Source: Sinohyriopsis cumingii
Taxonomy: Eukaryota > Mollusca > Bivalvia > Unionida > Unionidae
Direction: 5' to 3'
Length of the DNA: 64,000 bases
NCBI GenBank assembly: GCA_028554795.2
Contig: CM068827.1
Span: 138,316,493-138,380,492 of the forward strand
Under the pieces are notes generated by a model. That model searched no databases. It had not been told where the DNA came from and saw nothing but the letters and a program-made list of their open reading frames with translations. A program made the position numbers and the translations under genes. Position 1 is the stretch's first letter, and the number at the start of each line of letters is the position of its first letter. Shown here one piece after another: positions 16,958 to 37,172 of this stretch.

Positions 16958-17290
16958 AGTAGTGAATAGGGGCACTAGAGCGACAATGGGAATTAGCATT
17001 AAAAACACCCCTGGGCAAATATAGCGACAATGGAAATTTAACATGGAGAAAAATCGTGGGCAAATATAGCGACAAGGGAAATTAACATGGAGAAAAAAAA
17101 TCGTGGGCCACTCTAGCGACAAGGGGAATTGAACATGGGGGGAATAAAGTGTGGGTCTATCTAGGGACAAGGGTGAATTGAACATGGGATTTTTTTTTTT
17201 TAAATATTTTTTTAAATTTAAAAAAGGGGTAGACAATTGAAAGTCATTCTCTTTTCGAGAAATATGGGTGGCCCTGAAAAGGGCCTTTGG
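16958..17290 (+). repeat. Left terminal inverted repeat of element B
   Basis: Outer part has four degenerate units containing CTAGCGACAAGGGGAATTGAACATGG-like sequence; then an A/T-rich run and an outward-facing histone-type hairpin. The inner about 170 bases match 36996-37172 in inverse; the outer units are missing on the right side. Confidence 0.85.
17265..17285 (-). terminator. Histone-type 3'-end hairpin in left TIR, facing outward
   Basis: On the minus strand: GGCCCT/TTTC/AGGGCC then ACCCA, then ATATTTCTCGAAAAGAGAATG. AAA precedes the hairpin. It would end a minus-strand transcript coming from about 17.6 kb. Confidence 0.85.
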
Positions 17291-17600
17291 GTTTATGTTA
17301 ATGTATCCATTAACATAAAGGGCATCTGCGGCATCTTCTTGTCCTCAAGCTGCGTCTTACTCGAGGACCATAAATCAGTGTCCTCTTGAGGCAACCTTGT
17401 CTTTCTACGTACACTCTTCGTATCCACAGACTGGTGTCTGACTTGTCGACAACGGTCCACTTGGACCGGACATACATGAGCATGTCCGTCCTAAACATCA
17501 AGGGAGACACAAGGGTGGATGATTCGACTGTGGTTTACATCTTGAAGCGACGAGAACAGGTAAATCAATGCAGTGAACTGCGCTTATTTATAGGTAGAGG
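17291..17600 (-). other. Possible decayed minus-strand terminal gene
   Basis: A minus-strand TATAAATA lies at about 17586-17593 and the outward hairpin follows at 17285, the same promoter-gene-hairpin layout as the right block. The frame is uncertain: the first ATG is followed directly by a stop; a frame from 17498 to 17310 encodes about 62 Arg/Cys-rich residues. I cannot name a product. A plus-strand frame over the same bases (17386-17619) is the alternative. Confidence 0.35.
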
Positions 17601-17705
17601 AAGGATTGAAACGGATTGAGTTCATTCACCAATCCAAACACGCGTTACAAAATTCAGTCAGTCCGCATCCAATCTGAAGAGAGCAGTCTGTGACGTCACG
17701 TGGTC

Positions 17706-17712
17706 TATATAG
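17706..17712 (+). promoter_or_regulatory. TATA box of left coiled-coil gene
   Basis: TATATAG 48 bases before the start at 17760. Confidence 0.5.
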
Positions 17713-17759
17713 ATTCGCTAGCGCTTGTGTGCAGTCAATCTATGTGACAGTGATTCAAC

Positions 17760-18329
17760 ATGACGGAAACTCAGAAAACGATTCATTGGGGTGCACCAGC
17801 AGGGGAGACTGCCCAAGGGAACCCGGACTTACTTTCAGAAGAGGTGAATTGGGATTTTGTGGATTTTCTTACCTCGCAAGAATTTGTAACGGAATCTTCG
17901 TTACCTTCTTCATTACCGCAAGTGGAGAATTTTAGACAGAGACAGAAAGAAGAATTGGAGAAATTTATACAACGACAAAAGGAAGCGGAACAAGCTTTTC
18001 TCCTACAGCAACAGCAGCAAGAAGAAGAGGTAAGAAAAAAACAACAACAAGAAGAAGTAGCAGCAGCAAAGAAACAAGAGGGTGAAAATCAAACGGTCAA
18101 GGTACTGTTAGACATTTTAGCGGAGTTAAGAAGTCTGAAACAAATGTATCAGACTTCTTTATTACGACCGAAGAGAATACGACCTTCCCAAGCTACACAC
18201 GTTAACCCTGTGACTAAGCCTGTCGTACCACCCTTAGTGATTTCAACCAAATCATCATCAACAGTACGCAGTCCAGAATTAGGCCTTGGCCGTGGCAAAG
18301 GCTTAAGGCAGTTAAAGTTGATTGCTTAA
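17760..18329 (+). CDS. Left terminal coiled-coil protein, intact
   Basis: 189 residues. Residues about 55-110 are a Gln/Glu/Lys-rich helix (RQKEELEKFIQRQKEAEQAF) ending in Gln runs; a second helix ILAELRSLKQMYQ and a basic Pro/Ser-rich tail follow. It has its own TATA box, and a histone-type hairpin comes 27 bases after the stop. Composition and layout resemble the right-block genes. No recognised domain; function unknown. Confidence 0.7.
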   Translation: MTETQKTIHWGAPAGETAQGNPDLLSEEVNWDFVDFLTSQEFVTESSLPSSLPQVENFRQRQKEELEKFIQRQKEAEQAFLLQQQQQEEEVRKKQQQEEVAAAKKQEGENQTVKVLLDILAELRSLKQMYQTSLLRPKRIRPSQATHVNPVTKPVVPPLVISTKSSSTVRSPELGLGRGKGLRQLKLIA

Positions 18330-18356
18330 ACTCACCCCTACACCAAAAAAACCAAA

Positions 18357-18377
18357 GGCCCTTTTCAGGGCCACCCA
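18357..18377 (+). terminator. Histone-type 3'-end hairpin after left coiled-coil gene
   Basis: AAA, then GGCCCT/TTTC/AGGGCC, then ACCCA, then CTCTCGAAAAGAAATAC. Full match to the metazoan histone consensus, and not inside a TIR. Confidence 0.9.
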
Positions 18378-18520
18378 CGTCTCTCGAAAAGAAATACAAT
18401 TTCAATTTGATAATAACTCAAAAAAAAACATTTTACCCCTATAGTACGTGTATATGAGTGCGTGAGTGTAGCTTCTTATTTTAAAATCAAAACTCAAAGA
18501 CACTTACCTTATATAATTAA

Positions 18521-18526
18521 TTTATT
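18521..18526 (-). terminator. Poly(A) signal of zinc-knuckle gene
   Basis: AATAAA on the minus strand about 85 bases beyond the stop of the zinc-knuckle gene. Confidence 0.5.
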
Positions 18527-18610
18527 CTTTTATCCATTGTTACAATCCAATTCACAATTCACAACAGAACACTTTAATATAAAGTTCATTGACTTCTTCT
18601 TTCTCCTTGT

Positions 18611-19077
18611 TTAGTCTCTCTGTTTTTTAAATTTCTTCACTGTCACAGGCTTTTCCTCTTCTTCCTCCTCACTTTCTTCCCTTCTTCTTTTCTTCTCCTG
18701 CTTCTTTTTCTTCACCTGTCTGCTTTCTTCCTCTGCAGAATCCCTCTCTTCTTCCCAATAATCCCTCTCTTCTTCTGAAGAATCCCTCTTTTCTTCTGAC
18801 TCCTCTTGTTTCTTTTTTGGGCAATCTGGAGACCAATGTCCTTTTTCATGACAATAATAACAGGTATCTTGACTTCTGTCATTTTAGCCCCTTTTTTTCT
18901 TTTTTGACGGTCTGGACACTCTGAAGACCAATGCCCTTTCTTCTGACAGATATAGCGAGTATCTTGACTTTTATCTCGAAAGGAAGGAGAGTAGTCCGTG
19001 GGCTGGTCTGAAGAGAATTTTCTGATGACCCCTCGCAAAGCTCTGACGAAACGTTTGATTTGGCTAGTCTCTTCCAT
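18611..19077 (-). pseudogene. CCHC zinc-knuckle protein, frameshifted
   Basis: From the minus-strand ATG at 19077 the N-terminus (EETSQIKRFVRALRGVIRKF) is basic and helical. Two zinc knuckles follow: YICQKKGHWSSEC, whose first Cys appears lost, and after a frame change near 18885 a complete CYYCHEKGHWSPDC. The C-terminus is Glu/Lys-rich and ends at 18611. Such knuckles bind single-stranded nucleic acid in retroviral Gag and CNBP-like proteins. A TATA at 19134-19141 (minus strand) and an AATAAA beyond the stop frame the gene. Divergent to the polymerase. Confidence 0.75.
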
Positions 19078-19133
19078 CGTTGTGCTCGGTTTGAGAGTGA
19101 AATGAATAGTGAAAGGACAAGACACACACCCTT

Positions 19134-19164
19134 GTATATACGCTGGTCTGCCATGACTATAAAT
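19134..19164. promoter_or_regulatory. Divergent TATA boxes, zinc-knuckle and polymerase genes
   Basis: GTATATAC at 19134-19141 for the minus-strand gene and TATAAAT at 19158-19164 for the polymerase, so both are served from one short intergenic region. Confidence 0.5.
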
Positions 19165-19212
19165 TAGTCCATGGTGTTTAAACTTGAGTCATTTTGACGT
19201 TTTGCACTCAAG

Positions 19213-22200
19213 ATGAAACGATCCTATTCATTCGAGAAGAAAGAAGAAGAAAGTAAGAGGCAGAAACGTGATCTATCGCCTCGTACCAGGGCTGAAATCT
19301 TGGCCCAAATTCATGCCAGTGATTTTGAAGAGGACATGAGTGAACCAGAATCCGAACCCTCTAAACCAAGTTCGCCACCCTTAGTCGACCCTGAAAAATA
19401 CTATTCCATTCGAGAGACGGAAAAGCGCTCCTCTAGAAAATTTAGAACCACGGCTTAGAAATACACAGTGAAGTTTAAAGATTTCAAGGCTGAAGAACCG
19501 TTAGAGAAAGCAGAAGTGTTCATCACTGGGGTGTGGGATTCTTTGCTCACCACACTCAAGCGACAATGTCAACCCAAAGAAGACGATCGCTAGAGACTTT
19601 CCATACAACATGACGGTTTGAAATCCCCTGTTTGGATCGAGTTTAGCACCCCTGCAGAATTGACCGCTTCCAAAGTCATGGACAAGATTCAACACGTGCA
19701 ACAATCTAATGACCAGTTTGACATCACCGATGGTAAAGCCACATTGGACATGACCCACGTCTCTCCTCCTCAAGGGACCGGACGCAAAAAGATGTTATTG
19801 GTGAACGAGCTTCGCAGCATTAAGCGTAGCCTTGTCCAAATTCACAATCCTCAAGACCAGGTGTGTTTAGCTTGAGCCATCGTGGTGGGACGAACCTATG
19901 CCAACAAGAACGACACGGCAAAATGGAAAAGAGCCTGGAAAACTATTCAACGATCCGATCGAGCCAAACAGCGAAACGAAGCAGAAATCCTCTTACAACA
20001 AGCCGGACTGTCCAAAGACACACCCTGTGGCATTCCTGAGATGCAAAAATTGCAAGATGCCCTAGCTCCACGCTACACCTTGAAAGTGCACCCTCAAGAA
20101 GTGCCCGGACTTCTGTTCTTTCGAGGCCAAGACTTTAAGGACGGAAAATACATTCATGTCTATTATCACGATGAACATTTCGATACCATTACCAGTATCA
20201 CCGGATTCCTGGGATACAGTTATTACTGTGAGAAATGTGACCATGGTTATAATAATCGAGAGCAACACAAGCATTGTGGATTAAAATGCTCAGGATGTTT
20301 GGCCTCTTCACCTTGTCTGAGCGAAGGACCAGTGCCTTGTTCAACTTGTCTGCGCACGTTTGTCAGCCCTACCTGTTACCAACAACATCTGAAGACGCAA
20401 GGTTCACAGCAGAAATGTATTTGTCAACTCCTGAGATTGTGCCCTACATGTGGACAAGGCATATGTACCAATGCTGCCAAGGCACACGTATGTCGAGGAA
20501 AGAAAAAATGTCACATTTGTCACCACATCGTGGACTTGGAACATCAATGTTACGTGCAAAAATACCAACCCCCACCAGAGAAAGAGGACGGTCACAAGAA
20601 GAAAGGCAATTTCATCTTGCTTGATTTCGAATGCATGCAAGAGACCGGCATTCACATTCCTAATTTCTGCGTGGCTCATCGAGCGTGCGAGAAGTGCATT
20701 CAAGAACCTATCTTCAGTCATTGCCCTCACTGCAGCAAGATTCCCGGAGGAAGTGAAAAAATCTTTCGGGGACCGAACACGTTAGCGGATTTTGCCCAAT
20801 GGGTCTTAGACCCCATCGACAAGACGTGGAGCCAAGAGGACATCGAACGTTACGGAGATTGTCATCGTCATGCCACGGTGATGGCTCACAATTTCTCCGG
20901 ATACGATGGACAGTTTCTTTTGAGGTACTATACGGAACATGGCACCGAACGTCCTAAAGTGACTTTGAACGGAGCCAAAATCATTTTCATGCAAGTGGGA
21001 CAAGTACAGTTTAAAGATTCGATGAGCTATTTGGGCATGCCTTTGAGCCGAATGCCTAAAACGTTTGGAATGACAGAAATGGCTAAAGGGTACTTTCCAC
21101 ACTTTTTCAATACGGAAGCCAATCAACACGCCGTTCTACCCCATTTACCTGAGGCTCACTATTACGACCCCGACAACATGCGTACCGAACAACGAGAAGC
21201 TTTCTACGCTTGGTACCAGGCTCACGCCTCGGACCCTTTCGACTTTCAGGAAGAAATGCTAAAGTATTGTCGTTCCGACATGGACAATTTACGGCGTTGC
21301 TGTGGACAATTTCGAGAACTGTTCATGGAACACTGAGGGGTCGATCCTTTGAAAGAAGCTTGCACCATTGCCAAAGCGTGTTCCTTAGGGTATCGACAAC
21401 GATTCATGCCTGAAAAGACCGTTGCTGTTATCAGTCCTCAAACGACCCACTTTGTCAAATGTCAATACTCGGTCAAAGCCCTACGCTGGTTACATTACTT
21501 GTGCGACAAGGAAGACAAATGGATTCAGCATGCCCGCAACGGAGGGGGTGAAAAGACCATCGGAACGTATTCGGTCGATGGCTGGGACTTAGAAAACCCA
21601 AAGATCGTGTACGAGTTTAACAGTTGTTTATTTCACTGATGTCCCGTCTGTTACCCTGACCGTGACACTAAAAATCAGTTTTTACAAAGAACCATGGAAG
21701 ACTTGTACCACGACACTTGTCAGCGGCGCCTAAAGTTGGAACAGCAAGGATACCAAGTGGTGGAAATGTGGGAACACGAGTACGATCACCGTATGAAAAC
21801 CGATCCCGAGTTTAAACGCCTCGTGGAAAGTTACCAGTTCATGGACCCGCTGAACCCGAGGGATAGTTTGTACGGAGGAAGGACCAATGCCACCTGTTTG
21901 CTGTACCAAGCCGACGAAGAGAAAGGAGAAGAAATCAAATACTTGGATGTGTGTTCGCTGTATCCCTACGTGTGCAAATATTGTCGCTTTCCTGTAGGGC
22001 ACCCGCAATTGTTCACGGAACACATCGACCTGAAAAACATTCGACAATACGAAGGCTTGATCAAGTGTAAAGTTTTGCCCCCCACGAACCTATACCATCC
22101 CGTCTTACCTCACCATTGCCAAGGCAAACTGATGTTTCCATTGTGCCGTACTTGTGCCGAAACGTGCAACCAAGATCAACCTTGTCAGCACACCCAGGAA

Positions 22201-23250
22201 GAACGTGCCTTGACGGGAACCTGGGTCAGCGTAGAATTGTTCAAAGCTCTTTACATGGGATACCAACTGTTAGAAGTGTACGAAATTTGCCACTTTCCCA
22301 AGACACAACAATACCACAAGGGTGATCCCAGTCAGAAAGGCATTTTCGCTGACTACGTGGATGCCTTTTTGAAACTGAAACAAGAAGCCAGCGGCTATCC
22401 TTCCTGGTGTCACACTCCCGAAGACCAAATACAATTCAAAGAGAAATACTATGAACAAGAAGGCATCTCTTTAGACCACATCGAGAAAAACGAAGGCAGG
22501 CGATCATTTGCCAAAGTGATGTTAAATTGCTTGTGGGGTAGAATGGCACAATGACCGTGTTTACCCAAGACGGAATATTTGACAGAACCTTCCCGCTACT
22601 TCCAGATGATTCACGACAAAACCAAATACATGAAACACGTGGACGTCGTTCGAGAGAATTTGATCTTGGTCAATTACGAAGAAGATCTGGACTTTGTACA
22701 ATACGACCCTTTTGGAAATGTCATCATTGCGGCTTACGTGACAGCTCATGCTCGCTTAAAATTGTACGAAGCTTTAGAACTGTTAAGGGAACGCGTCCTG
22801 TACTTTGACACGGACAGCTGCATTTACATCCATCACCCGAGTCAACAGCACCCTAACATCGAAGGAGACCGTTTAGGAACCTGGACAGACGAGCATCCCG
22901 ACGACAAGATTCTAAGTTTCGTCAGTGGCGGTCCTAAAAATTACGGCTACGAATACCGGGACAAACAAGGAGAAGTGCACACGACGTGCAAAGTGAAAGG
23001 ACTGACTCTGAATTATCGTACCAGTCGAGTGGTCAACTTTGGGGTATTGAAAGAAGCCTTGCAATCGGGAGAGGATGGAAACTTTAAAGTGACCACCTAT
23101 CAACCCAACAAGATTGTACGTTTACCCACTCACCACATCGTCAGTCGACCCCTGGAAAAAGTCTATCAAATTGTGTACCAGAAGCGAGTGCGACTTCCCA
23201 ATCATTTCACCTTGCCGTATGGACACGTTGGTATAAAACATTGGTTGTAA
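19213..23250 (+). pseudogene. Protein-primed family B DNA polymerase, six in-frame stops
   Basis: About 1345 codons in one continuous frame. Order: charged N-terminus, a Cys/His-rich region (codons about 338-450), exonuclease motifs LLDFEC (about 469), HNFSGYDGQF (about 558) and YCRSDMDN (about 684), polymerase motif A DVCSLYP (about 911), motif B KVMLNCLWG (about 1100) and motif C DTDS (about 1198). It would replicate the element by protein priming, as in other Polintons. Stops: TAG at 19456 and 19591; TGA at 19873, 21334, 21637 and 22552. No frameshift is seen, so the lesions are point changes only. Confidence 0.93.
23232..23238 (+). promoter_or_regulatory. TATA box of first BIR gene
   Basis: TATAAAA overlapping the last codons of the polymerase, 42 bases before the start at 23274. 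Confidence 0.5.
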
Positions 23251-23273
23251 GAGGATAGTCATCCACCAGAAAG

Positions 23274-23711
23274 ATGACTTCGCCACAGCAAGAATCGAGT
23301 GAGAAAGCCGATGAGAACTCCAAGTTCAAACCCTACCATTTTCCAGTCTTCTTACCTGACTATTGTGATTGTGCCCGTCGATTGGACACGTTTCAGAAAT
23401 GGCCTACGGATAGGGAAGGATTACCTTCTTCGCATGTTTTAGCTAGAACAGGATTTGTCTACTTGGGACCTGAGTCAGGATTGGGATACGAGGTACAGTG
23501 TTTCGCTTGCGGACTGAAGTTACGAATGGATCTATGTATCTATAAAGATTCAGCTATTCTGGAACATACTCGATGGTCTCCGCACTGCCCTTACCTTTCT
23601 TTGGCCTTTCCACCCATCACACTACGGTACAATGTTGACGGTACCTTAGAGACGGTACCTTCCGAAACAAGACATAAAAAACATAAAAAAGGAAAGATGT
23701 ACAAGCTATAG
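23274..23711 (+). CDS. BIR-domain (IAP-like) protein 1
   Basis: 145 residues with one BIR domain, about residues 22-112. Zinc ligands are C76, C79, H98 and C105. The R..TF..WP start, ARTGFVYLG and EHTRWSPHCPYL are typical of the family. The usual Trp between the second Cys and the His is not seen. There is no RING or CARD. BIR proteins bind caspases or IAP antagonists, so an anti-apoptotic role is likely but inferred. It has its own TATA box. Confidence 0.9.
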   Translation: MTSPQQESSEKADENSKFKPYHFPVFLPDYCDCARRLDTFQKWPTDREGLPSSHVLARTGFVYLGPESGLGYEVQCFACGLKLRMDLCIYKDSAILEHTRWSPHCPYLSLAFPPITLRYNVDGTLETVPSETRHKKHKKGKMYKL

Positions 23712-23727
23712 ACTGCATTGCGACTAG

Positions 23728-23735
23728 TATAAAAA
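23728..23735 (+). promoter_or_regulatory. TATA box of second BIR gene
   Basis: TATAAAAA 57-64 bases before the start at 23792. Confidence 0.5.
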
Positions 23736-23791
23736 GGGGGCTATGGTCAAGATCGATAGTTCATTGTGACTACCAAGACCGAGCGAACAAG

Positions 23792-24529
23792 ATGAATACT
23801 TTGAAAGAGACATCGTTCCAGTTTGGGGATTGTAAAAAAGTTGTATCTTCCTCTAGTGTGACTAATATTGGATGGATAAGACCCATGCATTGCGACGGAA
23901 AATGTCCGGAAGGAAACTGCGATTGTCCATGTGGTTACCATTGTAATTGCGTAACGGAGTTTGCAGACGAGTGCGATTGTGAGCCTTGCGATGGGTACGA
24001 TGCTGTACGTTGTGACCTGAGCGATGCCGTAAAGCATCATGGGAACTTTGTTCTCACTACCCCTGTCATGGAAAGTGATGCTGTGCGTGTCAAACCTGAG
24101 GGATGCGAAAGCGATGCCGCTCGTCCTCTTAGACATTTTACCGGGTTTAAAGGGGAATGTTCACCTTCACGTCTACCCCCCTATGGATGTCATCCAGCCC
24201 TGAGCAAACTCCTGTTCCTGTCACCCAACCCTCATCGAAACGAACCTGTGAAAAACGAATATTCGTTTCCTGTGCGTTTGTCGGAATACTGCGACTTTGA
24301 AAATCGTCTTCAATCGTTCAAAGGAAAATGGCCTAAGTATCTGGGAGGACCGACCCCCGAAGAATTAGCCAGAGCCGGATTTTTCTACTTGGGCGAAGGA
24401 GATAAAGTCAAGTGCTTCAGTTGCGGTGTGTCACTTCACCACTGGGAACCGCAAGATTCGGCCTACGTAGAACATGCTCGATGGTCACCGAATTGTCATT
24501 ACTTACCCTTAGTGGGACCGAGACATTGA
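23792..24529 (+). CDS. BIR-domain (IAP-like) protein 2 with Cys-rich N-terminus
   Basis: 245 residues. The C-terminal BIR domain has ligands C208, C211, H228 and C235 in canonical spacing and the usual Trp. Ahead of it, residues about 30-75 form a dense Cys cluster (CDGKCPEGNCDCPCGYHCNC) that could bind metal; I recognise no named domain there. Sequence differs clearly from BIR protein 1, so the two genes are old duplicates or separate gains. Likely apoptosis-related by family. Confidence 0.88.
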   Translation: MNTLKETSFQFGDCKKVVSSSSVTNIGWIRPMHCDGKCPEGNCDCPCGYHCNCVTEFADECDCEPCDGYDAVRCDLSDAVKHHGNFVLTTPVMESDAVRVKPEGCESDAARPLRHFTGFKGECSPSRLPPYGCHPALSKLLFLSPNPHRNEPVKNEYSFPVRLSEYCDFENRLQSFKGKWPKYLGGPTPEELARAGFFYLGEGDKVKCFSCGVSLHHWEPQDSAYVEHARWSPNCHYLPLVGPRH

Positions 24530-24551
24530 AGTAACTTACCATAATCTGTAC

Positions 24552-25011
24552 ATGGATACTTTACAAGAGAACATTCGTGCTTTGCCTGTGGAGTTGAGAG
24601 AACGCATTTACCGAGAGCTGGTCAAAATACAAGTGAAACGTAAAGAACAATTGCATCCGTTACGTCACCGGTGTTTGAACCACTGGTACCTGAAGGCTAT
24701 ACAAGGACTGATTCAATTGAAGGTGTTCCATTGGAAATGACATTGATCAACGATCCCCCAGTTTTAAAAAGGATTGGTTTGTTATGGACGATTCTATCTA
24801 CTACATCATTGTAAACGTACTACATCGAATTCCAGAGGAAGAGTTAACGAATTACCAACATCTTGAACACAATGTCAGCTTGGTGAAAGAGGAAACTTCT
24901 GAACGAATTGCAATGTGTAAATTAGTAACTAAACGATTTAGATTCGACACTGAAGTAAAACCATGTCTGTGCAAAGAGTACATTTCTTGTGTCAGACCAA
25001 AGAGGATTTAG
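24552..25011 (+). pseudogene. F-box-like gene, tandem copy 1 (broken)
   Basis: Starts MDTLQENIRALPVELRERIY; LP.EL...IY..L is the pattern of an F-box first helix. A stop at 24738-24740 and a frame change separate it from the C-terminal part (24784-25011, RIPEEELTNYQHLEHNVSLV), which aligns with copy 3. Confidence 0.65.
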
Positions 25012-25023
25012 TATGACCTATTC

Positions 25024-25140
25024 ATGGATACTTTGCTAGAGAACATTCGTGCTTTGCCTGTGGAGTTGAGAGAACGCATTTACCGAGAACTGATCAAAAT
25101 ACAAGTGAAATCAAACGCAAAGTTATTCAACCGTTTTTAA
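25024..25140 (+). pseudogene. F-box-like gene, tandem copy 2 (truncated)
   Basis: Only the first about 29 codons match copies 1 and 3 (MDTLLENIRALPVELRERIY), then the sequence diverges and stops after 38 codons. Confidence 0.65.
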
Positions 25141-25257
25141 ATTATGCTCTGTTCCAAACTATAAGAAGACTGATTATGAGTGGATATTACATCAGGCACA
25201 AAGGTAAACGAGGCTATTGGCCACCACCCAACGATTCCAAAAACAGTATATATACTT

Positions 25258-26251: not shown

Positions 26252-26438
26252 AAGACACTTTCGGGCGGACACTTGTGTGACCTTACCCCCTACTATAGAA
26301 CTGGTTAGAACATTACCCAAAACATGTTGTTGTACAGACACTTGTGTTTATTCCACATTCATGGTTATCATGTGCCTTTTATCCTTGTACTTAAGCCTTT
26401 GGCTTTTATGTATTTTTGTCTTTCGTATTCATGTTTGA
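26148..26438 (+). CDS. Small membrane protein, C-terminal anchor
   Basis: 96 residues from the ATG at 26148. A polar N-terminus and a Cys cluster (PKTCCCTDTC) come before one long hydrophobic segment, TFMVIMCLLSLYLSLWLLCI, near the end. It overlaps the previous gene in another frame by about 100 bases. AATAAA just after the stop is a likely poly(A) signal. Could be an envelope or host-membrane protein; inferred only. Confidence 0.5.
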   Translation: MHESCSKKKVTFQPVLVTVPEEPVTQDGTVVDRPERHFRADTCVTLPPTIELVRTLPKTCCCTDTCVYSTFMVIMCLLSLYLSLWLLCIFVFRIHV

Positions 26439-26469
26439 AACATTCAATAAACGTGTTCTGAAAAAAAAG

Positions 26470-26477
26470 TATATAAA
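26470..26477 (+). promoter_or_regulatory. TATA box of ATPase gene (copy B)
   Basis: TATATAAA, 47 bases before the start at 26524. Confidence 0.55.
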
Positions 26478-26523
26478 CTCTTGTCTTGTTTGTTTTCGTG
26501 TCACAAGTGACATTTCTCACACT

Positions 26524-27252
26524 ATGGCTACCTCTGCTGTCTCTGCTCCCTCTTCCTCTACTGTCAAAGTCATCGACGAACACTTAGATCGTGCCAGTTG
26601 GGAGGCTTTGTATCTTCGCCATCCCTTTAACATGCTCATTGCTGGACCTAGCGGTTCAGGCAAAATCGAATTCGTCAAACGTTTGATCGAACATAAACAT
26701 CATTTGATCGATCGGCCACCTCAACGGATCGTGTGGTGTTACAAAGAGTGGCAATCGGCGTACAGCCTCTTGCGAGAGAGTCAAGGCGATTCCATCGTGT
26801 TTGTGGAAGGCATTCCTAAACAAGACGACGGTATCGTCTCTGACTCCCGTCAAACCCATTTGGTCATTTTTGACGACATGTTAGGAGAAGACGAAGAAGA
26901 AATTAAACTGTGGTTCACGCGCAAAGGGCATCACCGTAATGCCAGTGTCGTTTACATCAACCAAAATTTGTTTCAACAAAGTAAAGCCCATAAAACCATC
27001 AGTCTCAATGCGCATTACGTGGTCTTGTTTAAAAGCCCTCGAGATAAATCGCAAGTGCAAGTCTTAGCCAAACAGTTAGGAACGCCTTGGCTGACTCAGG
27101 CGTACGACGATGCCACTCAAACTCCACACGCCTATTTACTCGTCGATTTGAAACCTACAACCCCCGCGGATTTGCGATTTCGTACCCACTTGTTTCACCA
27201 CTGGCGCCAAGACGGAGGGCCTGTCCTGTACACGTCTCCGTCCTCGACTTAA
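26524..27252 (+). CDS. Genome-packaging ATPase, FtsK-HerA type (copy B, open but Walker A altered)
   Basis: 242 residues in one open frame. Walker A at residues 41-48 reads GPSGSGKI: the final Thr of the family motif, present in copy A, is Ile here. Walker B HLVIFDDML is at about 112-120. An Arg-rich segment (FTRKGHHRNASVVY) and the QNLF motif follow as in Polinton ATPases. Because that Thr/Ser coordinates magnesium in P-loop enzymes, this product is probably inactive despite the open frame. Confidence 0.93.
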   Translation: MATSAVSAPSSSTVKVIDEHLDRASWEALYLRHPFNMLIAGPSGSGKIEFVKRLIEHKHHLIDRPPQRIVWCYKEWQSAYSLLRESQGDSIVFVEGIPKQDDGIVSDSRQTHLVIFDDMLGEDEEEIKLWFTRKGHHRNASVVYINQNLFQQSKAHKTISLNAHYVVLFKSPRDKSQVQVLAKQLGTPWLTQAYDDATQTPHAYLLVDLKPTTPADLRFRTHLFHHWRQDGGPVLYTSPSST

Positions 27253-28227: not shown

Positions 28228-28286
28228 AAAAAGGCCTGTGACCAAGTCGGGGTATCAGTGTTTTTGGTGCTCCTGAAGACACAAAG

Positions 28287-28673: not shown

Positions 28674-28721
28674 AAAGGCCTCGGAAGTCCCAAGATCTCA
28701 GAATCGACCCCTGACAACCCC

Positions 28722-29366: not shown

Positions 29367-29386
29367 CACACCAACCAACACAAAAA

Positions 29387-30496
29387 ATGGAAAAAGTCTT
29401 AGCCAGCATTTACTACGATCCCTCCCATCCTGCAGGTTACGCAGGAGTTCAAAAATTGTATCGTGCTGCCAAAACTCGACTGAAAAGTCTCCGTTTACCT
29501 CAAGTGCAACAATGGTTACAAGAACAAGCTACCTACACTTTACACAAACCCATTCGACGCAAGTTTGCCAGAAGTCGCACCCGAGTGGAAGGCATCGATC
29601 ATCAATGGCAAGCCGATTTAGCCGATGTCTCTCGTTTGGCCAGCTACAATCGTGGCTACAAATATTTGTTTTGTGTCATCGACGTCTTTTCCAAATTTGC
29701 CTGGGTCGTACCCTTGACTTCCAAATCGAGCAGCGAGTTAGTACGAGCCCTGCAACGGGTGTTGAAACAAAGCAGTCGTCACTCTCTTCGATGGCAAACG
29801 GACAAAGGCACCGAATTTCTGAATCAAGCTTTCCAAAAAGAATTAAACAAACGTGACATTCATTTTTTTACCACCGAGAATCCCGAAACCAAAGCCAGCA
29901 TCGTGGAACGTTTTCAACGCACTTTGAAAGAACGCATGTGGAAATATTTTACGCATCACCACACTCTCAAGTACATCGACATCTTACCGCACCTGGTGCA
30001 AGCGTACAACCAATCTTACCATCGAAGCATCGGACGTGCCCCGCAAGACGTGACTCCCGAGAACGAAGTGTTGGTGTTTGAGCGTCTGTTTGGTACGTCC
30101 CCGATGAGGGCTGTCCCCAAGAAAAGTGGAATGTTGGCCGTAGGAGATTGGGTGCGCATTGGCAAAACCAAACGCACTTTCGACAAAGGTTACTTACCTA
30201 ACTGGACGACCGAATTGTTTCGCGTCACTGGACGAGTGCATGGCCGTCATCCTACCGTCTATAAATTGGAAGACATGAACGGAGAAGTGCTCAAAGGAAC
30301 GTTTTATATGCCCGAGTTACAACGTGTCACCAAAAAAGAAGACGACGTGTACGACATCGAAAGCATTCTCGAACGCAGAACCCGTAAAGTGGGCAAACGA
30401 CGTGTCAAAGAAGTCAAAGTACGTTGGAAAGGATATCCACCCAGTTTTGATTCTTGGATCGACGCTTCGCAAGTCATCGACTATGAAAAGAAGTGA
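29387..30496 (+). CDS. Retroviral-type integrase with C-terminal chromodomain (copy B, intact)
   Basis: 369 residues, same length as copy A. D77, D139 and E174 in D,D35E spacing; chromodomain at about 318-369. The ATG at 29387 follows an A-rich leader and matches the start in copy A. Differences from copy A are scattered and leave all catalytic positions unchanged. Confidence 0.95.
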   Translation: MEKVLASIYYDPSHPAGYAGVQKLYRAAKTRLKSLRLPQVQQWLQEQATYTLHKPIRRKFARSRTRVEGIDHQWQADLADVSRLASYNRGYKYLFCVIDVFSKFAWVVPLTSKSSSELVRALQRVLKQSSRHSLRWQTDKGTEFLNQAFQKELNKRDIHFFTTENPETKASIVERFQRTLKERMWKYFTHHHTLKYIDILPHLVQAYNQSYHRSIGRAPQDVTPENEVLVFERLFGTSPMRAVPKKSGMLAVGDWVRIGKTKRTFDKGYLPNWTTELFRVTGRVHGRHPTVYKLEDMNGEVLKGTFYMPELQRVTKKEDDVYDIESILERRTRKVGKRRVKEVKVRWKGYPPSFDSWIDASQVIDYEKK

Positions 30497-30501
30497 CCAT
30501 C

Positions 30502-30918
30502 ATGCCCTTTCACACAGACGCAGCTACGTCGACCACTCCTTCACCTAGTTCTTCTGTGCAAGATTTACAAAAACAACCCTTGTGGGTGTGGTGTGGAGAA
30601 CGTGTGTCTAAAACACAAATCGTCTTTTTCTGCCAAATCTTAGTGGTGTATTGTGTCATCGGGGCAGCCATTGCCAATCTGAGTTTGCAACAAGGAGACA
30701 AACAATTGTGGACCATTTTATTGAGCAGTTGCATCGGTTACCTGCTTCCTAATCCGTCCCTGAAATTCACCTCGAACGGGAACCACGGGAACCTTGTGTC
30801 CAGTGCCAGTGCCAGTTACCACTCCAACAACAACCACAACCAGAACCCCATTTTGGGCGGAGACACGCCTCTGACGTCCAGTAACCCCTCGGACAGCCAC
30901 AGAACTCTGGAATTATGA
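30502..30918 (+). CDS. Two-helix membrane protein (copy B)
   Basis: 138 residues, collinear with 4462-4872. Membrane segments IVFFCQILVVYCVIGAAI and LWTILLSSCIGYLLPNP, then a Ser/Asn/His-rich tail. Stop and next start overlap (ATGA), suggesting coupled expression with the penton gene. Confidence 0.75.
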   Translation: MPFHTDAATSTTPSPSSSVQDLQKQPLWVWCGERVSKTQIVFFCQILVVYCVIGAAIANLSLQQGDKQLWTILLSSCIGYLLPNPSLKFTSNGNHGNLVSSASASYHSNNNHNQNPILGGDTPLTSSNPSDSHRTLEL

Positions 30919-31844
30919 GTCACCAAAACCAATTTTACTTAACCTTACCCAGTGACAGTTCCATGGAGGTGTTTCCCCACAACACGTTGTGCTGTTACAC
31001 AGCCAAATTACCTCAGGCCATCCCCTTAGATCACGAAGCCCATTGGGAAGTGGCTTTAGTGGAAATCATTCACCCGACCCAAGTCCTCAATGTCCTTCCC
31101 AATGAAAATTCTTTTGATGTGGAAGTTTATGACGAGCAAATGCAACAGTACTTGGATACCCATGGCAAATAGGACAAGAAAACCCGTTTACAAAATCAAA
31201 AGTACACCACCTATCACTTGTTCATTCCCCCAGGCTATTATTTTAGTGGTCAACATTTGGTGAGCACCATTACCTCCAGGTTTAATGTCGTGTTTCTGAA
31301 AGCTTTGGAAAGTGTCACAAAAAGTGTCACCATGGAATATCACAAAACAGCTCGTCGCTTCTTGATGAAATTTGACGGGAGTAAAATCCTGTCCATTCTA
31401 TTTTGTTCTGAATTGTTTGACATGTTGGGCGGAGACATGGACATGAGAATGGCCATGATCAAGAAAAACGAATTACCCATCGTTTACGACAACGAGTCTT
31501 TTAGCAAGTTATTTCGTGCCCCGGTAGAAATGAATCAAGGACTGAATTTGATGTTTGTGTACTCCGATGTGGTGGAGTACAACGTGGTGGGACACACCTC
31601 TGTACCGTTACTGCGTGTCATTCCTTTCAAAGTGGATTCTGCCACGAACGCTGACGAGGAAGGTGGAAACACTTATCACGTTCACCGCGAATTTGTCCAT
31701 CCTCACTATTTGCCTGTCAGCAAGTCGTATTTGGACACGGTCAACATTGCTATAAAAGGAGATTTGGGACAAAATATTCCATTCACCAAAGGAAAAGTCA
31801 CAGTGAAACTCCATTTTCGAAAACGGTTCTCTCACGACTCGTAA
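30915..31844 (+). pseudogene. Penton-like minor capsid protein (copy B, one stop)
   Basis: About 309 codons in one frame, interrupted only by a TAG at 31170-31172. Begins MSHQNQFYLTLPSDSSMEVF; later segments LFIPPGYYFSGQHLV and NLMFVYSDVVEYNVVG match Polinton vertex proteins (single jelly roll). Far more complete than copy A. Confidence 0.88.
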
Positions 31845-31847
31845 GTC

Positions 31848-32264
31848 ATGTATCCAGTGTACCGAGGGGTTGCTGGACAGCGAGGACACGGTTTAGGAGA
31901 TATGTTAAAATCGGCCTTTCGTTCGGTGGCCCCGGTGTTGAAACCGATGCTGACACGCGGATTGCACGCCTTGAAAGATGCGGCACTGACGCAAGGCAAA
32001 GAATTTCTCCAAAATGTCATCATCGACAAACAAAATCCTAAAGCAGCCTTCATGAGGGTAGGCAAAAATGTCTTGCTGCAAACAGGCAAAGACATTTTAG
32101 GCCGACGAGACACACCTATAAATGCCCTGCACGCTACCGAGTCAGGCATTCAGCAAGGACAAGGCAGAAAGAGACGACGAAGAAAACACCCTTTCACCAG
32201 ACTTCAAGCGAGAAAGGCCAAGAAAAGAAGAACCGTTCGAGACTTAGACGTTTTCGATTATTGA
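31848..32264 (+). CDS. pVI-like minor virion protein (copy B)
   Basis: 138 residues, begins MYPVYRGVAGQRGHGLGDML, basic C-terminus. Starts three bases after the penton stop; a TATA box at 31751-31757 inside the penton gene may drive it. Intact. Confidence 0.8.
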   Translation: MYPVYRGVAGQRGHGLGDMLKSAFRSVAPVLKPMLTRGLHALKDAALTQGKEFLQNVIIDKQNPKAAFMRVGKNVLLQTGKDILGRRDTPINALHATESGIQQGQGRKRRRRKHPFTRLQARKAKKRRTVRDLDVFDY

Positions 32265-32283
32265 GAAACAGCAACAAAAAAAA

Positions 32284-33597
32284 ATGATGCACCAAGAATC
32301 TTGCGCCTGTTCCAAGTCGGAACTGGACCTGTTTGCCATGCCCCCCACCATGATGACCATGCAAGAATCGCAGTGGGTGGAATTTCACCCCGTATCCTCA
32401 TTGACAGCCTCAGCTCCCATCGAGTTTGAAATTAAAGGACAGCCCGAAGATTACATCGATCTGAATAGCAGTTACTTGTACTTGAAAGTCAAAGTTGTCA
32501 ATAAGGACAATTCGCCCCTAGATCGCGATGAGGTAATAGCTCCCGTCAACAATTTCATGCATTCCTTGTTCAGTGGAGTGGACTTGTACTTGAATAACAA
32601 ACTAGTCAGTAGCAGCATGGATACTTACCCTTATCGTGCCTACCTGGAAAATCTCTTGACGTACGGAATAGATGCCAAGAACACTCATCTCAATGCCTGT
32701 GTGCTATGGGAAGCTGACGAAGCTGACAAGTTTGAAACATTCGAAACTAATGCAACCAAAGACAACAATGATGGATTTGTAGAACGAAGAAACAGAATCA
32801 TGGGAGCCAACAAAAGTTTAGAACTGATGGATCGTTTGCATTTGGACATGTGGTTGCAAGATAAATATTTGCTGAATGGGGTGAATGTTCGCCTGAGACT
32901 GAATCGTAGCAGTGCCGCTTTCCATTTGATAGGTACTACTGCTTGCAAAACTGTCATCGAGGAAGCCAGACTCTACGTACGACGCGTAGAAGTGTTACCT
33001 AAAGTGGGAAACGACATCAGTCAGACGTTAAGCAGAACGACCGCCAAGTATCCCATATGACGCGTGGAAGTGAAAACCTTCACCATTCCCAAGGGACAGC
33101 GATCCATGATCGAAGATCATCTGTTCCAAGGACAGCTACCCAAACGTTTGATCGTTGGTATGGTCGAGAATACAGCCTTCAACGGAGCTGCCGATAAAAA
33201 TCCTTTCTACTTTCAACACTTTGGTGTGTCCAAGATCGAAGTCAGTCGCGATGGCAAAACCTTGTGTACCCGACCTTTCGAACCTAACTTTGAGAAGAAG
33301 AACTACTTGAGATCGTACTTGTCCTTGTACGAAGCTACCGGACAGTTAGGAACCAACACCAGTCAGGGCATTACGTACGAGGATTATGCAGGAGGCTATG
33401 CTTTGTGGGCTTTCGATTTCACTCCAGACCAAGGCAGCGACGAGGGACATTTTCACCCTATAAAATCCGGCCAGATTCGTGTAGAAATTCAGTTTGCAAC
33501 CCGAGACCCTGATGTAACGGTGAACGTCATCCTGTATGCAGAATTCGATAATACCATAGAAATCAACAGTTTGAGAGAAGTCATTCTAGACTATTAG
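32284..33597 (+). pseudogene. Major capsid protein, double jelly-roll (copy B, one stop)
   Basis: 437 codons, collinear with the intact 440-residue protein of copy A, interrupted by TGA at 33058-33060 where copy A has a CGA codon. No frameshift. The variable loops between about 32500 and 32800 differ most between copies, as expected for surface loops. Confidence 0.93.
33469..33475 (+). promoter_or_regulatory. TATA box inside major capsid gene (copy B)
   Basis: TATAAAA 128 bases before the next gene at 33603; same place in copy A near 7168. Confidence 0.4.
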
Positions 33598-33602
33598 AAA
33601 CC

Positions 33603-34036
33603 ATGGAAGACTGTTATCCCTCTTTAGCTAGTGGAGAAACTTTGGACATGGAATGTGAGGAGACCATGGAAAAAGAAGAAGTGATCATGATGAAGTCAAG
33701 ATGGCCAGAACAAGAAGCCCATTTAGTCTGCTGTTTTGCCAAACACTTGGTCGAAAAAAGACGGAATTGATCAAGAAAAATTGCTATGGATGTCAAAACG
33801 ATCATCCCAGTCAAATTCAACACGATAAATGCCTGATGCTGAGTCAAGAAGAAAAATTGGACGAGTGGTATAAAGACTTGCGTGAACATTCTTGTCCACC
33901 ATTAACCACTCAAGAGATCCATCGTATCGAAGCTCTCCTGAATCAGAGTGAGGAGACGAAACGAAGAAACGGTTATTTGTCAGACATTTTCAAACAAAAA
34001 GTCAGGATCGAATTGACGACTTATTATTACCTGTGA
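33603..34036 (+). pseudogene. Cys-rich acidic conserved protein (copy B, broken)
   Basis: Collinear with 7314-7793 but has a one-base loss near 33760, a deletion of about 48 bases near 33868 and an extra A near 33995. The CYGCQNDHPSQ motif survives. Confidence 0.75.
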
Positions 34037-34053
34037 AGAAAAAAACCACACAA

Positions 34054-34614
34054 ATGGATACCTGGGAACTTTATTACCTTTTGAACCACAGTTCGTACAC
34101 GGCTTCTTGGAATCCCGTTGTCTGTGCTAAAGATGAACTCCCTCATCGCAAACCTCAAGACCATCTAGCTTATGTCATCAACACGGACGACAGTCATCTC
34201 CCAGGAACCCACTGGGTAGCCGTTTACTTTCCTCAAGAAGGATGTGTGGAATATTTAGATTCGTACGGATTGCCCCCTTTGGAAGACGATATCATCGACT
34301 TTACGAGAAGAAATGCTCAGACCACCCGATTCAATAATGTGAAATTACAAGGCACAGATTCTTTGGTGTGTGGACAATATTGTGTGTATTTTCTGCATCA
34401 TCGCAGCCTGAGCTATTCCTTAGAACATTTAGTGATTCATTTTGATCCTCGTTCTTCTTCAAGAAATGATGTGAAAGTAGATCGATGGTTTTGTGACCAT
34501 TATGCTTATCTTTTGTCTCAAGCTAGGAAACGTAGTGTCCATCAATGGCCTAATGATTTCCAACAGTGGAAATCACAATTTCATTCACAACGTTGTCAGC
34601 CCTGTTTAAAGTAG
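34054..34614 (+). CDS. Adenain-like cysteine protease (copy B, intact)
   Basis: 186 residues. H53 (GTHWVAVYF), D69 (VEYLDSYG), Q99 and C106 (VCGQYC) match the adenovirus protease catalytic layout; Q99 and C106 are seven apart, as in adenain. It cleaves capsid precursor proteins during maturation. The ATG is chosen because the copy A frame starts at the same codon. AATAAA follows at about 34727. Confidence 0.93.
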   Translation: MDTWELYYLLNHSSYTASWNPVVCAKDELPHRKPQDHLAYVINTDDSHLPGTHWVAVYFPQEGCVEYLDSYGLPPLEDDIIDFTRRNAQTTRFNNVKLQGTDSLVCGQYCVYFLHHRSLSYSLEHLVIHFDPRSSSRNDVKVDRWFCDHYAYLLSQARKRSVHQWPNDFQQWKSQFHSQRCQPCLK

Positions 34615-34860
34615 AGTGTGAATTGAAAAAAATGTTTGTGATTTGAAAAAAATGTTTGATGTTATATTGTTGGATTATTGTTTAAAAAATGTTAGAGTTG
34701 TTGTTTAGTGTTAAGTGATTTTTTGAATAAAAAATGTTGTGTTTTGAAAAAAATGCCTTTGTCTTTTGTTTGACTATAAGATTGTTGGATTCATGCTCTT
34801 TAATTTCTTACTATCCCTCTCATGACACTCATTGAACGTTGCGGCTCGAAAACCGTGTGG

Positions 34861-34898
34861 GGGATGTTTTCCTTCACGTCCGCGCTTTGACTTTAAGA
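34861..34898 (+). promoter_or_regulatory. Shared upstream box, right-block gene 1 (copy B)
   Basis: GGGATGTTTTCC, TTCACGTCCGCGC, then CTTTAAGAA instead of a TATA box, as in copy A. Confidence 0.75.
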
Positions 34899-34951
34899 AC
34901 CGGGGAAGTTTCCAGTCTAACCATCCATTGTCGACTCATCCTCCTACGAAG

Positions 34952-35323
34952 ATGTGCTCCAAACTAGCTAAGCTAAACGAAGCCTACGTGAATTTGCATA
35001 GGGTCAGACACAGTCTGATACCGAAGCCAGAAGAGATAGAGAATGTGAGAATGTTAAAAGTCACTGAAGACCTGATAGAAGAGCTCTTCAGAGAAGAAGT
35101 GAACAGGGAAAAAGAAGAATGGACAGAGAAGTACAGACTTCAGAGACAGCAGCAACAGCAACAACAACAACAACAGCAGCAGCAGCAGCAGCAGCAACCT
35201 GAACCTGACAGAGGCTTTGTCGATTGTCGTATCGACACCAAAGAGTTCTTCTTCTCTTTCCGAAGAAGCAGACCTATCGCCAGAAAGTCTATCCTCAGAG
35301 GACATCGCATTCTTAGAAACTAA
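34952..35323 (+). CDS. Right-block gene 1, Gln-repeat coiled-coil protein (copy B, intact)
   Basis: 123 residues. KLAKLNEAYVNLHRVRHSL helix, Glu-rich helix (EELFREEVNREKEEW), a run of about 17 Gln encoded by mixed CAG/CAA, then a basic C-terminus (FRRSRPIARKSILRGHR). The Gln tract differs in length between the two copies. The hairpin follows 29 bases after the stop. Confidence 0.7.
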   Translation: MCSKLAKLNEAYVNLHRVRHSLIPKPEEIENVRMLKVTEDLIEELFREEVNREKEEWTEKYRLQRQQQQQQQQQQQQQQQQQPEPDRGFVDCRIDTKEFFFSFRRSRPIARKSILRGHRILRN

Positions 35324-35352
35324 ATGATTGCCATAGCAAACAAAAAAAACCC

Positions 35353-35373
35353 AGCCCTTTTCAGGGCTACCCA
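35353..35373 (+). terminator. Histone-type 3'-end hairpin, right-block gene 1 (copy B)
   Basis: AGCCCT/TTTC/AGGGCT then ACCCA and CAAGAAAAAGAAATAAC. The purine box CAAGAAA resembles the classical histone downstream element CAAGAAAGA. Confidence 0.85.
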
Positions 35374-35741
35374 ATACTCAAGAAAAAGAAATAACCATCA
35401 ATTTGCCAATGTGTGTAGGTAGAGTAGTGTGAATATAAACACTAACTCTTTTTTTTAATAGTGCGAGTGTATGTGTTTGTGTATAGGATTGTGTGTTTGT
35501 AAGTGCTCACGTACATTGGTGTGGATAGTAGATTAAGATCATGTTTTTTTTGGTGTTTGAGGTGTGGGGAGAGTAGAGTTAAGGTTAGATTACTTTGCGT
35601 ATGTGGATAGTATATTGAAGTGATTAATAAAAAAATTTTTTAGAATAGTGATGGGAAGTATAAAAAAGTGAGTGTTTCTTTTAGGTCCGCGCGTTGTTTT
35701 TTTCTTGTCATGATCTAGGTAAGATCAATTTTATGTTTTTA

Positions 35742-35779
35742 GGGGATGTTTTCCTTCACGTCCGCGCTTTCACTATAAA
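35742..35779 (+). promoter_or_regulatory. Shared upstream box plus TATA, right-block gene 2 (copy B)
   Basis: GGGATGTTTTCC, TTCACGTCCGCGC, CTATAAAT. A partial box (TTTAGGTCCGCGCG) lies at about 35680. Confidence 0.75.
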
Positions 35780-35830
35780 TTAAAACTCGTTCGGCAGTCC
35801 AGCTACCCTTGTTGATTGATCAACACGAGA

Positions 35831-36184
35831 ATGAACACTAGACTAGCGAAACTGTTGGAACTTCATGTGCATCTGGAATATGCCAGGCGCCTGTTGAACG
35901 AACTGGCCGCGGAGGCCATTGTCGAAGAGGGAAGGATGAGAGAGGAGGAGGAAAGAAGAAACAAAGAAGAGGATGAGAGAAGATACAAAGAAGAGGAAGA
36001 GGAGAGAAGAAACAAAGAAGAGGGGGAAAAGGAGAGAAGAAAAAGGAATTTCAGAATCCCAGAGACAGAAAATTGGGATTCTGAAGCTATTTATCCTGCC
36101 TCTGCTCTCTCTCCCAAAAAAGTAAAAAGCAACTGGGGAACAAGATGCGTATGTGGCGCCAGGCCTGGAAGGTGCCACCATTAA
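35831..36184 (+). CDS. Right-block gene 2, Glu/Arg-rich coiled-coil protein (copy B, intact)
   Basis: 117 residues. RLAKLLELHVHLEYARRLL is like gene 1; then about 50 residues of ERRNKEE-type charged repeat, then NFRIPETENWDSEA and a Cys/His end. The hairpin follows about 35 bases after the stop. Function unknown. Confidence 0.7.
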   Translation: MNTRLAKLLELHVHLEYARRLLNELAAEAIVEEGRMREEEERRNKEEDERRYKEEEEERRNKEEGEKERRKRNFRIPETENWDSEAIYPASALSPKKVKSNWGTRCVCGARPGRCHH

Positions 36185-36218
36185 CCAGGTGTCCATGAAG
36201 TTCAAAAAAAAAAAAAAA

Positions 36219-36239
36219 AGCCCTTTTCAGGGCTACCCC
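36219..36239 (+). terminator. Histone-type 3'-end hairpin, right-block gene 2 (copy B)
   Basis: AGCCCT/TTTC/AGGGCT then ACCCC and CTAGAAAAGAAATAACC. Confidence 0.8.
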
Positions 36240-36450
36240 AATACTCTAGAAAAGAAATAACCATCAATTTGCCAATGTGTAGGTAGAGTAGTGTGAATAT
36301 AAACACTGACTCTTTTCTCATAGTGTGAGTGTTTGTGTTTGTAACTAATAACGTAAGTTTGTGTGAATAGTAGATTATGGGTTTCTTTATTGTTTCTTAG
36401 CATATGTGGAGAGTATAGTTAGGGTTTTATTATATGAAATGAGAAAGTAG

Positions 36451-36560
36451 GGGGATGTTTTCCTTCACGTCCGCGCGTTGTTGGGTCATGATCTAGGTAA
36501 GATTAATTTTATGTTTTTAGGGGATGTTTTCCTTCACGTCCGCGCTTTTCGTATAAGAAC
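36451..36560 (+). promoter_or_regulatory. Doubled shared upstream box, right-block gene 3 (copy B)
   Basis: Two complete boxes: 36451-36478 (ending GTCCGCGCGTTG) and 36520-36560 (followed by GTATAAGAA). The segment between them repeats sequence found before gene 2, so this looks like a local duplication. Confidence 0.7.
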
Positions 36561-36607
36561 CCACAGTATTCGTCGTTCAAACCATTCTACAAAGAATAAA
36601 AAAGAAG

Positions 36608-36937
36608 ATGGCTTCAAACCACCTTTACAAAATGCAAAAATTACAAGACGTTTTGGACAATTTAGGAATAATGGAGCAGATGTTAGTGAGACTCAATGAA
36701 GACCACTATTCCTATAGTCCCCATCGAGTAAAGATGGAGATTAATAACTTAAGAAAAGAAAAGGACATAATAAGTGGTGTCATGAAAGAGATAAAGGAGG
36801 AGGAGGAGGATGAAGAGGAAAGGATAAGGATAAGAAAATGGAACGAAAAAATTGAAAAAGAAGAAGAAAATGAGAAGAGGAAGAAGAGGAGGAGAAGAAA
36901 GAAGAGGAGGAGAAAAAAAAGAAGAGAAAGAGTGTAG
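36608..36937 (+). CDS. Right-block gene 3, charged coiled-coil protein (copy B)
   Basis: 109 residues: LYKMQKLQDVLDNLGIMEQM helix, Glu-rich middle, and a C-terminus of Lys/Arg repeats (KKRRRRKKRRRKKRR). The hairpin follows about 64 bases later. Different protein from the third gene of copy A, though in the same slot. Confidence 0.6.
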   Translation: MASNHLYKMQKLQDVLDNLGIMEQMLVRLNEDHYSYSPHRVKMEINNLRKEKDIISGVMKEIKEEEEDEEERIRIRKWNEKIEKEEENEKRKKRRRRKKRRRKKRRERV

Positions 36938-36995
36938 GAGAGAAAATAAGAAGTTGGTTGAGAAAAAGAAGAAATTAGAAGCAGAAGAAGAAGAA

Positions 36996-37172
36996 ACCAA
37001 AGGCCCTTTTCAGGGCCACCCATATTTCTCGAAAAGAGAATGACTTTCAATTGCCTACCCCTTTCTTAAATTTAAAAAAAAAATTTAAAAAAAAAAAAAA
37101 ATCCCATGTTCAATTCCCCCTTGTCCCTAGATAGACCCACATTTTATTCCCCCCATGTTCAATTCCCCTTGT
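36996..37172 (+). repeat. Right terminal inverted repeat of element B (shortened)
   Basis: Inverse of about 17121-17290. It breaks off at CCCCTTGT, where a GT microsatellite begins, so the outer part and any target duplication are lost. Confidence 0.85.
37002..37022 (+). terminator. Histone-type 3'-end hairpin in right TIR (copy B)
   Basis: AAA, then GGCCCT/TTTC/AGGGCC, then ACCCA, then TTTCTCGAAAAGAGAATG. Exact mirror of the hairpin in the left TIR. Confidence 0.9.

Follow-up and report, generated by a model that had tools for sequence, protein, structure and literature searches.

We analysed a 64,000-nucleotide stretch of the genome of the bivalve Sinohyriopsis cumingii (contig CM068827.1, positions 138,316,493 to 138,380,492; hereafter the window, whose own numbering is used throughout), which holds two related Polintons, A and B, lying next to each other with a like gene order. 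Small accessory genes at the ends of these elements are followed by hairpins that closely resemble those ending replication-dependent histone mRNAs. From the sequence we propose, with a probability of roughly three in four, that the Polinton uses these hairpins as histone-type mRNA 3′-end signals for its accessory genes.

Eight histone-type hairpins were found in the window by reading the sequence and by pattern search, all of them at the positions, and with the stems and loops, that a first-pass annotation of this DNA had described. A search with the pattern RGCCCTTYYMAGGGCY, allowing up to two mismatches, returned eight matches in the window, all exact, against 0.40 expected and a maximum of 2 in 100 shuffles. 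We also ran the Rfam scan that the annotation had proposed: with the histone 3′ stem-loop model RF00032, four of the eight hairpins scored at or above the gathering score (E about 1e-8 to 1e-6), and the remaining four scored 24.7–31.0 bits, under gathering, with E from 6e-5 to 0.014. A chance origin of the hairpins was ruled out on the count of exact matches and on the E values of the best four.

In element B, the hairpin ending gene M lies on the minus strand in the left inverted repeat (17270–17285; RF00032 40.8 bits over 17245–17290), and the hairpin after gene L lies on the plus strand, 27 nt from the stop codon (18357–18372; 37.3 bits over 18352–18396). The other three, all on the plus strand, belong to the tail genes T1 (35353–35368; 28.7 bits from 35348, below gathering), T2 (36219–36234; 29.7 bits from 36214, below gathering) and T3, the last within the right inverted repeat (37002–37017; 40.8 bits over 36997–37042). 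In element A, plus-strand hairpins follow T1 (9121–9136; 31.0 bits from 9116, below gathering), T2 (9879–9894; 24.7 bits from 9874, below gathering) and T3 (10804–10819; 35.9 bits over 10799–10844). The span 16958–37172, to which all eight had been assigned, holds for five of them; those at 9121, 9879 and 10804 sit in element A. The eight are not independent, because the hairpins at 17270 (minus) and 37002 (plus) are mirror copies within the terminal inverted repeats of element B, and the pairs 9121/35353, 9879/36219 and 10804/37002 occupy corresponding places in A and B.

The loop is TTTC in seven of the hairpins and TTCC in the one at 9879. A purine box follows on the 3′ side in all eight cases, its run beginning 13 nt on in seven and 14 nt on in one (36219), and this spacing is the geometry of animal histone pre-mRNAs. 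The stems and loops claimed in the first pass were recovered exactly, and the purine box that it had described was present. No histone-type hairpin occurs in the 15.5-kb core of element B, even with up to two mismatches allowed, and the 32.7 kb of the window beyond both elements likewise contain none at the same tolerance.

Up to five genes per element end in such a hairpin: M (minus strand) and L at the left end, and T1, T2 and T3 at the right. The earlier observation that the plus-strand hairpins end small genes was borne out, and the minus-strand hairpin also ends one, which had not been listed. Gene M (17310–17540, minus strand) encodes a basic protein of about 77 amino acids (aa) with a Cys-containing C-terminus and has a TATA-like box upstream; it is read from 17540 to 17310 and stops 24 nt ahead of its hairpin. 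In the window copy of M, a stop at codon 2 interrupts the frame; the gene is open in other copies. Gene L (17760–18329, plus strand) encodes a 189-aa Q-rich protein, with TGACGTCA (17691) and TATATA (17706) upstream. The tail genes of element B, all on the plus strand, are T1 (34952–35323; 123 aa), which stops 29 nt before its hairpin, T2 (35831–36184; 117 aa, C-terminus RCVCGARPGRCHH), which stops 34 nt before, and T3 (36608–36937; 109 aa here), which stops 64 nt before. T3 measures 126–130 aa in most copies that have the window-type version, and an unlike version, T3b, occupies the slot in other copies. The tail open reading frames (ORFs) of element A are broken, with stop-to-hairpin distances of 180 nt, 325 nt and none.

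The T1, T2 and T3 proteins are under purifying selection, with mean ratios of nonsynonymous to synonymous substitution (dN/dS) of 0.09 for T1 (11 ORFs, 55 pairs), 0.21 for T2 (16 ORFs, 120 pairs) and 0.07 for T3a (12 ORFs; 62 of 66 pairs, the rest being dropped with dS out of range). T1 has nine homologous clusters in the protein database. A Pfam scan of T1, T2, T3 and L gave no match above the cut-off, and no histone was among the weak matches. A 23-bp promoter-like motif, GATGTTTTCCTTCACGTCCGCGC (one variant), precedes the tail genes on the plus strand of element B, at 34863–34885 for T1, at 35745 for T2 and, doubled, at 36454 and 36523 for T3; in element A it is found at 8622, 9446 and 10097. 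This motif is perhaps a shared promoter element of the tail module. TATA-like boxes, where found, lie mostly 52–63 nt upstream of the starts of T2, L and M. The hairpin signals mark one gene class, the small genes at both ends of the element, and the core is without them.

The same arrangement recurs in copies across the genome (2.9 Gb, 1138 contigs). In an integrase search, of which the best 111 of 44,666 candidates were scored, these 111 copies were 96–100% identical to the integrase of the window and 110 of them had no stop; such near-identical, stop-free copies indicate that the family has probably been amplified recently and on a large scale. Twenty copies were picked by hand, non-randomly, along the integrase list, and the stretch from 5.0 to 8.5 kb downstream of the integrase start was analysed. 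With up to two mismatches, 14 copies had three hairpins in this stretch, 3 had two, 1 had one and 2 (L056 and L068) had none. The first A-run ending in G, a measure that differs slightly from the purine run used in the window, begins 13–15 nt past the hairpin in 48 of the 49 copy hairpins and 17 nt past it in one. In 38 of the 41 testable hairpins among these 49, the stop codon lies 15–35 nt upstream; of the three exceptions, two had distances of 52 and 93 nt, and the third lacked an ORF reaching 60 aa. The ORFs upstream of the copy hairpins differ in kind and vary in length between 89 and 193 aa. Probes made from the N-terminal protein sequences identified 45 tail genes, each detected independently of its hairpin, and a hairpin was present within 700 nt in 44 of the 45, with all six pairs in 41. 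When the whole genome was scanned with RF00032 and the best 75 of 589,472 candidates were scored, the top 20 of these 75 all fell in copies of this Polinton (14 assigned by blastn, among the matches listed, and 6 by their ORFs).

More distant relatives were sought with a capsid profile, which found nine loci in records of bacterial metagenome-assembled genomes, taken to be eukaryotic or viral contaminants. One of these, CALIZB010000033.1 (L076), has a capsid 31% identical to that of the window elements together with integrase, PolB and protease matches. Its RF00032 match (35.8 bits) lies 28 nt past the stop of an 89-aa C2H2 zinc-finger ORF; a purine run lies about 12 nt beyond the hairpin, and next come CCATTGTCC-like repeats similar to ones found close to the termini of the window elements. 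Both the genomic copies and this distant element therefore carry a hairpin of this form, the absence of which from related elements had been named in the first-pass annotation as what would tell against the proposal. Across six whole records, RF00032 gave one match besides that of L076, at 24.6 bits and below the cut-off, in L082, a record with no Polinton protein matches. Scans of IMG/VR with the integrase, the capsid, the capsid profile, T1 and two hairpin patterns found nothing. Another of the related contigs, L073, from a Bathymodiolus symbiont record, has a weak twister-P1 ribozyme match after its capsid match (11734–11798; 28.9 bits, E 0.033, below gathering).

We then compared the hairpins with their surroundings, using 30 A-type (stem beginning AGCCC) and 17 G-type (beginning GGCCC) hairpins from the copies and the window. 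In this set, which was collected with a loose hairpin pattern and is hence biased, pairwise identity was 0.99 in the hairpin and 0.93 (A-type) or 0.90 (G-type) in the purine box, and in 20-nt steps over the 200 nt upstream of the hairpin it was 0.33–0.67 (A-type) or 0.49–0.88 (G-type). Covariation was examined in 15 chosen hairpins, which make 11 distinct rows, L076 included. The outer stem pair is A-U in seven of the 11 rows, G-C in four and mispaired in none; four stem pairs are invariant, and one row breaks one pair. The covarying outer pair gives modest support.

Several observations weigh against a histone-type signal, and some of them speak for other explanations. Two hairpins of element B lie within inverted repeats, whose likeness is maintained by a separate process, and identity remains at 0.85–0.92 from +40 to +99 past the A-type hairpins, so that constraint is not confined to the signal. 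Both points would fit a hairpin belonging to the Polinton itself as a DNA or RNA element, such as a terminator, a packaging signal or a recombination site, spread by duplication of a single terminal block and resembling the histone signal by coincidence. We consider this unlikely, given that the histone model fits the flanks as well as the stem, that the purine box keeps a near-constant spacing, that the hairpins lie mostly 15–35 nt past the stops of unlike genes, that there are two stem types with the outer pair compensated, and that L076 has the same layout after an unrelated zinc-finger gene. Duplication of a single terminator, which the first-pass annotation had raised, accounts for the mirror pair in the inverted repeats but, in view of the unlike genes and the distant element, not for the whole.

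Poly(A) signals are a further adverse point. Copies were searched for a poly(A) hexamer downstream of each hairpin as far as the following promoter motif. Within 300 nt, one was present for 20 of the 30 A-type hairpins and for 2 of the 15 G-type, and in element B one is found at +273 after the T1 hairpin. A polyadenylated form of these mRNAs is possible, given hexamers so near. It could be that a histone 3′ end was captured once and is now a passive relic, with transcripts reading through to downstream poly(A) sites. The A-type count would suit such a relic, which we nevertheless regard as scarcely credible: hexamers follow just 2 of the 15 G-type hairpins, the hairpin and purine box have been kept among copies whose flanks have diverged, and tblastn of the 20 best hairpin loci, 3 kb each, found no histone. 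The poly(A) hexamers are also compatible with histone-type processing, because histone transcripts in Drosophila have cryptic downstream poly(A) sites, which they use when SLBP is lost, as described in a passage of PMC2781718.

Neither a host U7 RNA nor the host's own histone signal was apparent in our searches. The best match to a U7 RNA in the host genome (locus L071, among the best 65 of 801,960 candidates) reached 29.3 bits with E 0.27, had no visible Sm site and was judged to be due to chance. The sequence AAAAGAG is complementary to the vertebrate U7 sequence CUCUUUU. Host histone genes lie in repeats of about 8.3 kb, with 114 H4 matches in the genome. The 75 scored RF00032 matches (the best 75 of 589,472) included none at an H4 match; this may reflect a limit of the search, with host signals scoring lower or passed over. 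Among the related contigs, the eight other than L076, mostly partial, had no RF00032 match at E ≤ 0.5. Several of the hairpin-less contigs stop near the protease gene; L073, L074 and L077 extend several kb past the capsid or protease gene, and over that distance their lack of an RF00032 match is a true negative. As judged from these sequences, the hairpin trait appears patchy among Polintons, and would therefore either have been kept in some lineages or have been gained more than once. Finally, just one stem pair covaries, and the N-terminal probes were derived from gene kinds first met beside hairpins.

The restriction of the hairpins to the ends of the element bears on another possibility, namely that they are viral 3′-end marks like those of giant viruses and virophages, setting the site of polyadenylation by virus-type enzymes. 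The capsid does resemble virophage and giant virus capsids, and the hairpins do stand at gene ends. The hairpin rule of giant viruses, however, needs no fixed sequence, TTTC loop or purine box; the core region is without this hairpin, and among the 18 window ORFs and one ORF of L076 whose proteins were run against Pfam, no poly(A) polymerase was found. We therefore hold viral marks of this kind to be highly improbable and return to the histone-type signal.

If the hairpins act as histone-type signals, host SLBP would bind the hairpin, as in the known histone pathway, the U7 small nuclear ribonucleoprotein would pair with the purine box, and the pre-mRNA would be cleaved directly 3′ of the hairpin. 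The accessory mRNA would then leave the nucleus and be translated with no poly(A) tail. The form of the signal makes such SLBP/U7 processing of these mRNAs quite likely. Because cycling cells carry out histone-type processing mainly in S phase, the accessory genes would be expressed mainly during host DNA replication and their mRNAs removed afterwards. By analogy with histones, S-phase gating is probably the purpose of the processing, although we hold this less firmly. Somewhat more tentatively still, we lean towards two mRNA programmes, in which the core genes would be poly(A)-ended and the terminal accessory genes finished by SLBP and U7, so that the element senses S phase. The likeliest use would be for early genes, acting only when a replicating nucleus is on hand for PolB-driven replication and integration.

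The remaining features of the two elements are those of Polintons, as the first-pass annotation had stated. Polinton B is about 20.2 kb long (16958–37172); its left terminus is AGTAGT at 16958, where several genomic copies cease aligning, and its right end passes into a (TG)n repeat, so the last bases may be missing. Its inverted repeats (17119–17293 and 36994–37172) are 93–94% identical. Only the right part of Polinton A, which starts before the window, is present (1–11117), with a right terminus at 11117, up to which copies align. On the plus strand, element B encodes PolB in three separate frames (20041–23250; DNA_pol_B_2 on two of the three pieces), two BIR (IAP, inhibitor-of-apoptosis) proteins (23274–24529; PF00653), an A32-type packaging ATPase (26431–27252; PF04665, 27.8 bits), an integrase with rve and chromodomain (29387–30496; PF00665, PF00385), a major capsid protein in two frames (32284–33597) with an open homologue in A at 5986–7308, and a probable adenain-type protease (34054–34614; PF00770, E 0.026, below the cut-off), which has an AATAAA at 34726, 112 nt past its stop. 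A protease homologue lies 3′ of the capsid gene in six of the nine related contigs. PolB, integrase, A32-type ATPase, capsid and inverted repeats identify A and B as Polintons, the protease match being weak.

An AlphaFold model of the capsid ORF at 5986–7308 had a mean predicted local distance difference test score (pLDDT) of 80.8, and Foldseek matched it to the double-jelly-roll capsids of iridovirus, PBCV-1, Sputnik and mavirus; on this predicted structure, the capsid protein of A and B is of the double-jelly-roll type. A search of the PDB with the capsid profile found nothing. Among 120 listed of 1331 capsid relatives, the nearest named are bivalve, with 53% identity in Mercenaria and 47% in Ostrea. 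In a structural alignment from a viral fold library, the Cotesia bracovirus protein R9XLG5 was 36% identical to the Polinton capsid. The window also contains 15 tandemly arrayed copies of a 327-bp unit (53340–58217; 90–94% alike across 300 bases) and five copies, with a gap, of a 319-bp repeat (60761–63228) that has internal repeats at 156/163 bp spacing.

Until now the histone 3′ end has been regarded as exclusive to histone genes. A passage of PMC2781718 (2009) states that SLBP had never been implicated in the direct regulation of genes other than histones, and describes the histone signal as a stem-loop plus a purine-rich downstream element, the same two parts as in the Polinton signal. The first-pass annotation was aware of no precedent in Polintons, a claim weakened by section 16 of PMC12220804, which lists six histone 3′ untranslated region stem-loops among the Polinton-like virus and virophage genomes that it collected; that section gives the count alone, with no discussion of the genes concerned, of positions, of purine boxes or of function. 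Our own literature search, with most subscription journals outside its coverage, found no paper on Polintons with histone-type gene ends. If our proposal is true, a set of non-histone genes is under full histone 3′-end control, of an age sufficient for elements with capsids only 31% identical to share it. With this signal on several unlike genes, the Polinton would show how a virus-like mobile element can read the host cell cycle through RNA processing, and would account for the possible absence of its genes from RNA libraries prepared by poly(A) selection. Many natural variants of a working signal would become open to study, and the timing of Polinton expression, an open question, could be approached in a concrete way.

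The Polinton signal shares with the 3′ end of replication-dependent histone mRNAs a six-pair stem, a four-base loop, an A-rich 5′ flank, an ACC-type 3′ flank, a purine box 13–15 nt on and a hairpin soon past the stop codon. The stem itself differs, being GGCCCT/AGGGCC or AGCCCT/AGGGCT in the Polintons and GGCUCU/AGAGCC in the Rfam consensus, and the genes concerned encode small accessory proteins of a mobile element rather than histones. The hairpin ends of giant viruses and virophages are alike in that the end of a viral mRNA is marked by a hairpin lying past the gene, but theirs lack a fixed sequence and a purine box and belong to polyadenylated mRNAs. In PolB, rve integrase with chromodomain, A32 ATPase, double-jelly-roll capsid and inverted repeats, the elements resemble the bivalve Polinton/Maverick (adintovirus-like) type; unlike eight of the nine other Polinton relatives, mostly partial, they carry tail genes with histone-type ends.

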